Shown: positions 13,921 to 31,823 of the stretch, in pieces | Layout: each line of letters starts with the position of its first letter | Position numbering within the stretch: the stretch's first letter is position 1 | Origin: Limisphaerales bacterium | GTDB taxonomy: Bacteria; Verrucomicrobiota; Verrucomicrobiia; Limisphaerales; UBA11358 | DNA length: 34,783 bases | Direction: 5' to 3' | Assembly (NCBI GenBank): GCA_003139955.1 | Contig: PLHK01000130.1 | Location: forward strand, 1-34,783 | Notes under the pieces: model-generated | The model's input: the letters and a program-made list of their open reading frames with translations, nothing else | The model's database searches: none | What the model was told of the DNA's origin: nothing | Position numbers and translations under genes: made by a program

Positions 13921-14040
13921 GGACTCATAACGAGTGGTCGAGGGACTGGCCCGGCGACACCACGGCAACCGATTGAACTGGTTTTCAATGTCAGGTGCCA
14001 ATTCCAGCTCAAGCACCATTAGCTTGGGAAAAATGAGAAG
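13921..14040 (+). promoter_or_regulatory. SAM-I (S-box) riboswitch aptamer
   Basis: The S-box core is readable base by base. P1 pairs CTCAT (13924-13928) with ATGAG (14033-14037). The conserved junction and P2 strand contain GAGGGACTGGCCC, then GGCAACC; P3 is GATTGAA with TTCAAT; AGGTGCCAATTCCAGC matches the conserved block after P3; P4 pairs CAAGC with GCTTG; and GGGAAAAATGAGAAG closes the aptamer. SAM binding stabilises P1. The 3' P1 strand plus the next bases (GAGAAG) can instead pair with CTTCTC at 14062-14067, which is the 5' arm of the terminator. That gives an OFF switch: high SAM, termination. Confidence 0.93.
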
Positions 14041-14057
14041 AGCACAACCGTTTTGTC

Positions 14058-14088
14058 GCCCCTTCTCGTCATGAGTCGGGGCTTTTTT
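14058..14088 (+). terminator. Riboswitch expression-platform terminator
   Basis: GCCCC (14058-14062) pairs with GGGGC (14078-14082), with an inner CTC/GAG pair and a five-base loop, followed by six T. Its 3' arm repeats the ATGAG of P1 (14071-14075), so it and P1 compete for the same CTTCTC strand. It regulates the thrC operon by attenuation. Confidence 0.9.
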
Positions 14089-14106: not shown

Positions 14107-14168
14107 GTAGCAGCGAAAGTGAGTTCGCTCTGACTGAAAATAATGAGCCGACTCACGTCGGCTGCTAC
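14107..14168. repeat. Complex inverted repeat (three-hairpin palindrome)
   Basis: Outer arms GTAGCAGC (14107-14114) and GCTGCTAC (14161-14168) enclose two inner hairpins, GCGAA/TTCGC and GCCGAC/GTCGGC. The element lies between the terminator and the thrC start, so it is transcribed as the 5' leader only when the riboswitch is ON. Shape and place suggest a dispersed REP/BIME-like element. Confidence 0.7.
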
Positions 14169-14188
14169 GATTGAAGAAATAAAAATTT

Positions 14189-15448
14189 ATGAGTGAAAAG
14201 CATCACGGTTTCATGAAGACACTCAAGTGCCGCGAATGCGCGCGCGAATATCCGCTCGAAGCGACGCACGTCTGCGAGTTCGACTTCGGCCCGCTCGAAG
14301 TCGCCTACGATTACGAGCGCATCAAAAAATCGCTCACGCGCGAAATCATCCAGTCGCGTCCGAAAACGATGTGGCGTTACCGCGAGCTTTTGCCCATCGC
14401 AGGCGAGCCGACCGTCGGCCCACTCGTCGGTTTCACGCCACTCGTCAAAGCGAACCGCCTCGCAAAAGCTCTTGGCATCCGCGAACTCTGGGTCAAGAAC
14501 GACGCCGTGAATTATCCGACGCTCTCGTTCAAGGATCGTGTCGTCAGCGTCGCGTTGAGCCGCGCGAAGGAATTAGGTTTTGAAACTGTCGCGTGCGCGT
14601 CCACGGGAAATTTGGCGAACTCCGTCGCCGCCAACGCCGCGAGCGCGGGATTAAAATCCTACGTTTTCATTCCGTCCGATTTGGAGCAGGGGAAAATTTT
14701 GAACTCGCTCATCTACGGCGCAAACGTCATCTGCATCAAAGGCCATTACGACGAGGTGAACCGCCTCTGCGCCGAGATCGCCGGCAAATTCGGCTGGGCA
14801 TTTGTGAACGTGAACATGAGGCCGTATTACGCTGAAGGCTCGAAGAGCATGGCGTATGAAATCGCCGAGCAACTCGGCTGGCGGCTGCCGCAGCACACGA
14901 TCGTGCCGATGGCGTCCGGCTCGTTGCTGACGAAAATCCACAAAGGCTACCAGGAATTTGTAAAGCTCGGGCTCGTCGCGAATTCCGAGACGCACATCCA
15001 CGGCGCGCAGGCCACGGGCTGTTCGCCGATTTCCGTCGCGCAAAAGGCCGGACTCGATTTCTTCAAGCCGGTGAAGCCCGACACGATTGCGAAATCGCTC
15101 GCCATCGGCACGCCGGCGGACGGTTTTTACGCGCTCAAAGTGATGCGCGAAACCAACGCCGCGGCTGACGACGTGACCGACGACGAAATCCGCGACGCGA
15201 TCAAGCTGCTCGCCGAGACGGAAGGCATTTTTGCCGAGACCGCCGGCGGCGTGACCGTGGGCGTGGCGAAGAAACTCATTGCGTCCGGGAAAATCCCGCG
15301 CGATTCTTCCGCCGTCATCTGCGTCACTGGCAACGGATTGAAGACGCTCGACGCCGTGCAAGGTCATGTCGGCAAACCGCGCGAAATCAAGCCGAGCCTG
15401 CGCGAATTCGAGGCGCTGCTGGCGCATGAAGAAAAAGTGAATGCGTAA
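14189..15448 (+). CDS. thrC: Threonine synthase-like PLP enzyme under SAM riboswitch
   Basis: A 419-residue fold-type II PLP enzyme. An N-terminal zinc-ribbon remnant holds Cys14, Cys17 and Cys29, but the fourth position is Asp32. Next come the threonine synthase blocks GFTPLVKANRLAKALG, VNYPTLSFKDRVVSVAL with PLP-Lys115, ACASTGNLANSVAA, PMASGSLLTKIH, HIHGAQATGCSPI and ETAGGVTVGVAKKL. The family converts O-phosphohomoserine to threonine. Here it sits behind a SAM OFF switch and ahead of a CysO-like sulfur carrier and a NIL protein, so homocysteine synthesis from O-phosphohomoserine is a real alternative (inference). The first ATG, 14189, is taken; 14213 is possible. The next gene begins directly at the stop (TAAATG). 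Confidence 0.9.
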   Translation: MSEKHHGFMKTLKCRECAREYPLEATHVCEFDFGPLEVAYDYERIKKSLTREIIQSRPKTMWRYRELLPIAGEPTVGPLVGFTPLVKANRLAKALGIRELWVKNDAVNYPTLSFKDRVVSVALSRAKELGFETVACASTGNLANSVAANAASAGLKSYVFIPSDLEQGKILNSLIYGANVICIKGHYDEVNRLCAEIAGKFGWAFVNVNMRPYYAEGSKSMAYEIAEQLGWRLPQHTIVPMASGSLLTKIHKGYQEFVKLGLVANSETHIHGAQATGCSPISVAQKAGLDFFKPVKPDTIAKSLAIGTPADGFYALKVMRETNAAADDVTDDEIRDAIKLLAETEGIFAETAGGVTVGVAKKLIASGKIPRDSSAVICVTGNGLKTLDAVQGHVGKPREIKPSLREFEALLAHEEKVNA

Positions 15449-15955
15449 ATGAATACTCAAAAGCCAAAACGTAAAATGCCGTGGTGGGCAATTTTGCTGT
15501 GCATTGTTTTTGCACCAATTCTTTTGGTCGCAATTCCAACTTTGTTGATAATTGTGCTGGCACTTTATGTCGTCAGCACAATTTGTCTGCACATTCTTAT
15601 TTGGTCGCTGTGGTATTCTCGCGGGTGTGACATTTTATTCGTCTATTCGGATAGTCCGATTTGGCATGATTACGTCGAGCAACATATTATTTCCAAACTC
15701 GGCAAGCGCGCGGTTATTCTTAACTGGTCGCAACGCAAACAATGGCGTTTTTCAATTGCTAGGATGGCTTTTTATCATTTCGGCGGTTATCGCCAATTCA
15801 ATCCGCTTGGCATTGTGTTTCGTCCATTTCATCGCACGCGAACTTTTAGATTTTGGCAGCCATTCCGAGATTTCAAACACGGAAATTCAGAAGCTCTTCA
15901 AAAAATGGAAAATGAATTTTTTGAATTGATTAGAATTCAAAGACACGAATCGTAA
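15449..15955 (+). CDS. AT-rich membrane protein of unknown function inside the thrC operon
   Basis: A 168-residue protein I do not recognise. Residues 13-54 are strongly hydrophobic (two adjacent membrane helices, WAILLCIVFAPILLVAIP and LLIIVLALYVVSTICL). The cytosolic part contains DILFVYSDSPIWHDYVEQHI, then RAVILNWSQRKQW, FGGYRQFNPLGIVFRPF and FRFWQPFRDFKHG, which read like a conserved soluble domain. The ATG touches the thrC stop. Base composition is clearly more AT-rich than the flanking genes (many TTT, ATT, AAT codons), so it may have arrived later than the rest of the operon. Role in sulfur or amino-acid metabolism is only suggested by position. Confidence 0.78.
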   Translation: MNTQKPKRKMPWWAILLCIVFAPILLVAIPTLLIIVLALYVVSTICLHILIWSLWYSRGCDILFVYSDSPIWHDYVEQHIISKLGKRAVILNWSQRKQWRFSIARMAFYHFGGYRQFNPLGIVFRPFHRTRTFRFWQPFRDFKHGNSEALQKMENEFFELIRIQRHES

Positions 15956-15970
15956 AATTATTTTTAATTT

Positions 15971-16246
15971 ATGCCAAAAAAAGTCCGCATCCCCACGCCG
16001 CTCCGCAAGTTGACCAACAACGAGGAGCTGGTCGAAATCAACGCCGCCACCATCGGCGAGGCGCTCGTCGAATTGCAGACGCGCTTCCCCGGCATCCAGG
16101 AACGCCTCGTGGATGAACAAGGCGAGGTGCGCCGCTTCGTCAACGTCTATGTCAACGAGGAGGACATCCGCTTCCTCAAAAACCGCGCGACGCCGCTCAA
16201 AGACGGCGACGAGATCAGCATCATCCCCGCCATCGCCGGCGGCTAG
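15971..16246 (+). CDS. MoaD/ThiS-family sulfur-carrier protein, CysO-like
   Basis: A 91-residue beta-grasp protein. It begins VRIPTPLRKLTN, continues with TIGEALVELQTRFPGIQERL and RRFVNVYVNEEDIRFL, and ends DEISIIPAIAGG. The C-terminal Gly-Gly is the residue pair adenylated and then converted to a thiocarboxylate. From memory of family members, the pattern PTxLR...ERL...RFVNxYVNxEDxRF...PAxAGG is nearer to Mycobacterium CysO than to molybdopterin MoaD. CysO donates sulfide to the PLP enzyme CysM to make cysteine. Here the neighbouring PLP enzyme of the same fold is ThrC-like. No ThiF/MoeZ activator or JAMM (Mec-type) protease is in the window, so these must be elsewhere if the model holds. 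Confidence 0.9.
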   Translation: MPKKVRIPTPLRKLTNNEELVEINAATIGEALVELQTRFPGIQERLVDEQGEVRRFVNVYVNEEDIRFLKNRATPLKDGDEISIIPAIAGG

Positions 16247-16250
16247 AACC

Positions 16251-16345
16251 AATTCAAAATGAAAAATGCAAAATTAAAAATTGTCGGCAGGAAATATCCA
16301 GCCGTTGAATTCAATTTTACATTTTTAATTTTTAATTTTTAATTT
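16251..16345. repeat. AT-rich imperfect inverted repeat
   Basis: ATTCAAAATG...AAATTAAAAATT on the left and AATTTTTAATTTTTAATTTG...on the right are near reverse complements around a 30-base spacer. It fills the gap between the sulfur-carrier and NIL genes, where no promoter or terminator with a T tract is clear. Confidence 0.55.
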
Positions 16346-16352
16346 GAATCTT

Positions 16353-16640
16353 ATGGCCACGCCCAAGAAAAAAATTACGGCGACGAAACCTTCTTCGCCG
16401 ACGCAGCAACGTTTGTGGCTGATGTATCCGCCCAAGCTCATCAAGAAGCCGTTCATCTACGAAGTCGGCCACAAGTTCAAAGTTGTGACGAACATTCGCC
16501 AAGCCACGGTGACGGACGAGATTGGAATCGTCTGTTTAGAACTCGACGGCGCACACGGCGAAGTCGCCAAGGCAATCAAATGGCTGGAGAAGCAAGGCGT
16601 CAACGTGGAGCCGGTGGAAATCGGCATTGTCGCCGGTTGA
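16353..16640 (+). CDS. NIL-domain protein
   Basis: A 95-residue protein. After a basic N-terminus (MATPKKKITATKPS) comes a ferredoxin-like NIL domain: LWLMYPPKLIKKPFIYEV, then FKVVTNIRQATVTDEIGIVC, LELDGAHGEVAKAIKWLEKQ and VNVEPVEI. NIL domains are best known at the C-terminus of the methionine ABC-transport ATPase MetN, where they bind methionine and inhibit transport. A free NIL protein in a SAM-riboswitch operon supports a methionine link. The ATG at 16353 is used rather than a TTG at 16344. Sixteen bases after the stop is a terminator, so this is the operon's last gene. Confidence 0.87.
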   Translation: MATPKKKITATKPSSPTQQRLWLMYPPKLIKKPFIYEVGHKFKVVTNIRQATVTDEIGIVCLELDGAHGEVAKAIKWLEKQGVNVEPVEIGIVAG

Positions 16641-16658
16641 TAAATTTGTAAGGACAAG

Positions 16659-16687
16659 CGGCGCGGAATCAAATCCGCGCCGTTTTT
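16659..16687 (+). terminator. Rho-independent terminator of the thrC operon
   Basis: CGGCGCGGA (16659-16667) pairs with TCCGCGCCG (16674-16682), loop ATCAAA, followed by TTTTTATTTT. It closes the SAM-regulated operon. Confidence 0.9.
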
Positions 16688-17805: not shown

Positions 17806-17814
17806 AGCTTGAAA

Positions 17815-17866
17815 GGGTGGCGTTGCTGCGCTGCCTTTTTTGGCTGACCAGCAAGTCAGCCCTACC
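17815..17866. repeat. Dispersed palindromic repeat, long copy
   Basis: GGGTGGCGTTGCTGCGC begins it and GCCCTACC ends it, with a GGCTGAC/GTCAGCC hairpin (17842-17848 and 17855-17861) in between. The GGCGTTGCTGCGC core and the GCCCTACC arm recur, inverted, at 31793-31823. Confidence 0.65.
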
Positions 17867-31792: not shown

Positions 31793-31823
31793 GGTAGGGC
31801 CGCGCAGCAACGCCCGCCCTACC
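31793..31823. repeat. Dispersed palindromic repeat, short copy
   Basis: GGTAGGGC (31793-31800) pairs with GCCCTACC (31816-31823) around CGCGCAGCAACGCCC. It is the short version of the element at 17815-17866, in inverse orientation, and lies two bases from the stop of the protease gene, where it could also work as a hairpin end. Confidence 0.75.

Follow-up and report, generated by a model that had tools for sequence, protein, structure and literature searches.

A SAM-I riboswitch with OFF-switch geometry precedes a probable homocysteine synthase gene labelled threonine synthase in Limisphaerales

The window analysed here, a stretch of 34,783 nucleotides from a Limisphaerales bacterium, carries a SAM-I riboswitch in front of a gene annotated as threonine synthase. 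Our analysis makes it very likely that this leader switches transcription off ahead of a metM-metO-NIL unit that makes homocysteine, and that the cell relies on a separate thrC for threonine. The locus represents, within Limisphaerales, a methionine route that was described recently, and its mechanism is known in kind. The original prediction held for the SAM-I riboswitch, the terminator and the OFF mechanism, but not for its view of the target as an unusual, non-methionine gene.

The RF00162 search proposed with that prediction was run with cmscan and gave a match on the forward strand at 13922-14039, with 73.8 bits against a gathering threshold of 44.4 (E 1.1e-15). The alignment was full length (1-108), the P1-P4 architecture and the conserved core letters were matched, and the core stretches GAGGGACUGGCCC, CGGCAACC and GGUGCCAAUUCC were all intact, in agreement with the near-textbook core described earlier. 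P1 of this aptamer is formed by CUCAU (13924-13928) and AUGAG (14033-14037). RF00162 was the sole match in an Rfam scan of the whole window, and the aptamer is the single SAM-I riboswitch in its 2.79 Mb draft genome. A chance match is ruled out by the score together with the conservation across the order, since the same riboswitch lies 5' of the same gene order-wide and the pairings of these leaders beat permuted ones.

The intrinsic terminator (14058-14088, forward strand) consists of a GCCCC/GGGGC stem (14058-14062 and 14078-14082) with an inner CUC/GAG helix, followed by six U (TTTTTT, 14083-14088). Both strands of P1 have a potential alternative partner in this hairpin. The P1 3' strand AUGAG overlaps the antiterminator 5' strand GAGAAG (14035-14040, the two spanning 14033-14040), which is complementary to CUUCUC at 14062-14067, the antiterminator 3' strand inside the terminator 5' arm. 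A second copy of ATGAG at 14071-14075 means that the P1 5' strand GACUCAU (13922-13928) can pair with AUGAGUC (14071-14077) in the terminator 3' half. The recurrence of ATGAG in the terminator 3' arm and the pairing of GAGAAG with CTTCTC had both been predicted, and the claim that the OFF mechanism can be read from the letters is borne out by this strand sharing and by the covariation of both pairings described below.

Because the antiterminator energy had only a weak z-score relative to mononucleotide shuffles (mean -1.3), matched and permuted pairings were compared. For this, each of 87 leaders of the order contributed its P1 3' strand and its terminator 5' arm, the arm being defined by the terminator hairpin alone. 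True combinations paired at -10.6 kcal/mol and permuted ones at -9.4 kcal/mol (p <= 2e-4, kinship ignored), with covarying hexamer pairs across leaders (GAGACG with CGTCTC, GAGACA with TGTCTC), and the terminator arms of the 87 leaders likewise paired more strongly in their true combinations (p <= 2e-4, kinship ignored). For the GACUCAU/AUGAGUC helix, too, true combinations gave stronger pairing than permuted ones, both in the genus (p = 0.002) and in the rest of the order (p = 0.0004; kinship ignored in both). P1 pairs showed little covariation (p = 0.08) because P1 is nearly invariant. In constrained folds, enforcing the antiterminator yielded both helices at -53.8 kcal/mol, compared to -47.8 kcal/mol for aptamer plus terminator, a difference that could be overturned by ligand binding; left unconstrained, the minimum-free-energy fold of the leader breaks up P2 and is uninformative by itself. 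The ligand-free scheme in which both P1 strands pair with the terminator arms is supported computationally.

In the absence of SAM, GAGAAG would pair with CUUCUC of the terminator 5' arm and GACUCAU with AUGAGUC of its 3' half, and with both helices formed the terminator would be blocked and transcription would read through. Binding of SAM would stabilise P1 and free both terminator arms, so that the terminator would form before metM. Judged from the arrangement of the strands, the switch has SAM-OFF geometry, from which a response to SAM would be expected. The aptamer, the role of P1 as anti-antiterminator and the intrinsic terminator are the same as in SAM-I (S-box) riboswitches of RF00162; the window differs in that both P1 strands are able to pair with terminator halves, the rest being standard. 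Between the terminator and metM lies a long palindromic hairpin (14107-14171), and this spacer folds at -33.7 kcal/mol. About seven relatives have a similar sequence at this position, and pieces of such elements also match the window at 31797-31823 and 17814-17835. Because the palindromic elements at this position differ in other relatives, the spacer resembles a landing site for dispersed repeats.

The gene controlled by this leader (14189-15448, forward strand) encodes 419 amino acids and scored 277 bits with the threonine synthase model TIGR00260, for which the cut-off is 167. This model does not discriminate, since a protein of the actinomycete Nonomuraea gerenzanensis (L224:3001-4203) scored equally well (270 bits against the same cut-off), and misannotation of MetM-type proteins by this NCBIfam 'equivalog' is probably systematic. 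The Nonomuraea gene is 57% identical to the window gene; it is closely preceded by an RF00162 match (68.7 bits) and closely followed by a sulfur-carrier-like gene of 91 aa. In a Pfam search, PALP (PF00291) was the sole family over cut-off for the window protein, which did not fall into PF01053 (the MetY/MetZ/MetB/MetC enzymes). The motif NSVNPxRxEGQK of solved threonine synthases, which we take to contact the substrate phosphate in these structures, reads NVNMRPYYAEGSK in the riboswitch-linked protein. A maximum-likelihood tree that took in those second thrC copies that could be aligned placed the riboswitch-linked proteins and the Nonomuraea protein in one clade (support 100/100), set apart from the solved threonine synthases and the second thrC copies. 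Compared with threonine synthase (TIGR00260; 6cgq, 2zsj, 1uim, 2d1f), the window protein shares the fold family and PLP domain with clear homology, but carries an N-terminal cysteine-bearing extension in addition to the changed motif and separate clade.

The own genome contains a second, canonical thrC (G000:C58:19698-20717, 243 bits), as do 14 other well-assembled genomes that bear the switch or its gene. In G039, in G061 and in G119, which is a single contig, this additional thrC adjoins a gene whose translation reads as homoserine dehydrogenase. In view of the clade, the changed motif, the second thrC, the sulfur-carrier neighbour and the lack of other homocysteine routes detailed below, the window gene is probably a MetM-type homocysteine synthase rather than a threonine synthase. 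With a homocysteine synthase as target, this would be an ordinary, textbook S-box arrangement in the methionine pathway with a wrong gene label, and the earlier description of an unusual S-box target would fall away. As a separate observation, metM of one species (L045 near 1850, L111 near 3160) carries a stop codon in frame about 54 codons into the gene, reflecting either a draft error or decay.

Downstream of metM, a sulfur-carrier gene similar to metO (15971-16246, forward strand) encodes a ThiS-family protein of 91 aa that ends in AIAGG (Gly-Gly). It matches PF02597, is 51% identical to the Nonomuraea carrier used as the search query, and has as its closest relative among solved structures a chain of 3dwg, which we take to be CysO of the CysM-CysO complex. 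A metO homolog was found in 19/19 tested genomes bearing the riboswitch or metM, and in 0/4 tested members of the order without the riboswitch; in 64 of 70 loci it lies 3' of metM and is read in the same direction. The next gene encodes a stand-alone NIL domain (16344-16640, forward strand, 98 aa as listed, with an ATG at 16353; PF09383, 41.6 bits) and follows metO in 62 of 63 loci, while a NIL homolog was not found in the Nonomuraea locus. Methionine importers also contain NIL domains. A terminator-like hairpin of 12 pairs (16656-16685, forward strand) closes the unit. Between metM and metO, an ORF of 168 aa (15449-15955, forward strand) starts directly after the metM stop codon and has a hydrophobic N-terminus; among the fetched loci it had no homologs and occurs in the own genome only, and it has been inserted into a cluster of genes that is conserved in other respects. 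The controlled unit probably comprises metM, this ORF, metO and the NIL gene, presumably co-transcribed, a reach beyond the first gene that the original prediction did not include.

We also looked for other routes to homocysteine. In the own genome, a draft of 91.7% completeness that makes absences weak evidence when taken alone, neither MetX nor true PF01053 enzymes (MetB/C/Y/Z) were found, whereas MetH is present; the single-contig relative G119 has the same gene pattern. The DUF39 (HcyBio) route is ruled out, as HcyBio was absent from all 20 genomes tested, including the own genome. Across the order, 28 genomes had both the switch and MetX, 135 the switch alone, 59 MetX alone and 23 neither, with five weak MetX-like matches under 200 bits left out, which gives a negative association (odds ratio 0.08, Fisher p = 6e-17, kinship ignored). 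The corresponding numbers for PF01053 were 44, 119, 56 and 26 (p = 7e-10, kinship ignored). Of the 163 genomes with the switch, 28 have MetX and PF01053 as well, so strict mutual exclusion does not hold and what remains is a tendency.

The switch is widespread: it was detected in 163/245 genomes of the order and in 40/49 genomes of the genus, normally once per genome. Wherever this could be checked, the gene directly downstream was metM-like (39/39 loci in the genus, 26/26 in the wider order). A search that started from the gene gave the same picture, with a SAM-I core motif or Rfam match upstream in 75 of the 78 GTDB loci that had enough upstream sequence, the named records among them belonging to Limisphaerales or Verrucomicrobia subdivision 3. 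In the wider phylum the riboswitch is rarer (17/195 genomes), with 18 copies in all, which lie in front of MetM-like genes (7, counting the own one), MetY (8), MetX (1) and unknown proteins (2); family models confirmed four of the MetY targets and the MetX target. For the most part, then, the switch goes with the step that forms homocysteine, regardless of the enzyme involved. Genome G402 has two SAM-I riboswitches (L218, L223) that precede open frames with similar N-terminal stretches and no NCBIfam match.

The annotation itself offers a different explanation, in which a true threonine synthase is placed under SAM control for balancing. The TIGR00260 score far above cut-off and the homology to solved threonine synthases fit with this, but the score carries little information when the Nonomuraea protein reaches it as well. 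Against a true threonine synthase stand a second, canonical thrC, a changed substrate motif, a sulfur-carrier gene as neighbour and a genome in which other homocysteine routes were not found, and its repression at high SAM would divert O-phosphohomoserine from threonine with no clear benefit. We therefore regard this explanation as very unlikely; the second thrC, together with the motif and the sulfur carrier, led us to reject it. A variant is an enzyme with both threonine synthase and threonine deaminase activity, whose control by SAM would tune the supply of 2-oxobutyrate and isoleucine. A cyanobacterial (Microcystis) homolog, 52% identical to MetM and adjoined by a metO-like gene, formed threonine from O-phosphohomoserine and also deaminated threonine in vitro (PMC12172450), which makes such side activities of MetM possible. 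However, the Microcystis gene lacks a SAM riboswitch (PMC12172450), and a bifunctional enzyme explains neither the missing homocysteine pathway nor the presence of the switch before MetY and MetX in the same phylum, so that we consider it highly improbable.

Plant threonine synthase is activated by SAM, and this raised the idea of an ON switch, where SAM binding would prevent the terminator and expression would rise. Beyond this analogy nothing specific favours such a switch in the window. The P1 3' strand is also the antiterminator 5' strand, so that a stabilised P1 must free the terminator, and the covariation of the pairings fits with release of the terminator by P1. We reject the ON reading on the basis of this strand sharing and hold it to be extremely improbable.

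The SAM-OFF control of a homocysteine-forming unit has a close counterpart in Streptomyces albulus, where MetM is a homocysteine synthase that uses O-phosphohomoserine, and metM comes with a SAM riboswitch and the sulfur-carrier gene metO (Hasebe 2024, AEM 90:e01247-24, as reported in PMC12172450). To the extent covered by that report, the window locus has the ThrC-like enzyme, the upstream SAM riboswitch and metO in common with this system, the likeness being one of arrangement, and the Nonomuraea locus shows the same order of parts. The window locus differs in its phylum, in the extra conserved NIL-domain gene and in the unrelated 168 aa ORF between metM and metO. It also has a transcription terminator, whereas in Nonomuraea the aptamer ends close to the start codon.

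By homology and genome context, MetM would make homocysteine from O-phosphohomoserine, the MetO thiocarboxylate would deliver the sulfur, and MetH would then convert the product to methionine, while threonine would be made by the separate thrC. With this route under a SAM-OFF switch, SAM would hold down formation of the precursor from which it is made. Speculatively, the NIL protein could bind methionine or aid sulfur transfer. A fuller version can be put forward tentatively: a three-component MetM-MetO-NIL route with a functional NIL protein, for instance as a methionine-binding brake on MetM or as a sulfur-transfer partner, with both P1 strands swapped with the terminator arms and with MetX/MetY replaced through much of the order.

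Parts of this proposal resemble other known systems. By sequence, the window carrier comes closest to the carrier chain of Mycobacterium tuberculosis CysM-CysO (3dwg), which feeds a fold-type II PLP enzyme; CysM-CysO makes cysteine from O-phosphoserine, and its enzyme subfamily differs from MetM. The Wolinella succinogenes route reportedly uses a MetY-type enzyme, a family absent from the window genome. That route, as far as it is described in PMC5764234 (citing Krishnamoorthy and Begley 2011), makes methionine with homocysteine sulfur taken from the thiocarboxylate of a small carrier protein, as proposed for the window. In the DUF39/HcyBio - NIL/ferredoxin - COG2122 pathway, of which a NIL domain forms part (PMC5764234), this domain is tied to homocysteine synthesis as in the window, but HcyBio is absent from the 20 genomes tested and the window NIL protein is a short stand-alone domain. 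In the literature searched, which left out most subscription journals and the MetM paper, neither the conserved NIL gene nor an order-wide replacement of MetX/MetY nor an occurrence in Verrucomicrobiota turned up.

These observations illustrate how the label of a gene may be corrected with the help of a regulatory RNA: automatic annotation says threonine synthase across the whole order, while the switch, the neighbouring genes and the pathway gaps point to a homocysteine synthase. This would extend the MetM route to Verrucomicrobiota and assign the conserved NIL protein a position in sulfur metabolism that can be tested. It also predicts that Limisphaerales genomes resembling those of methionine auxotrophs can make methionine.
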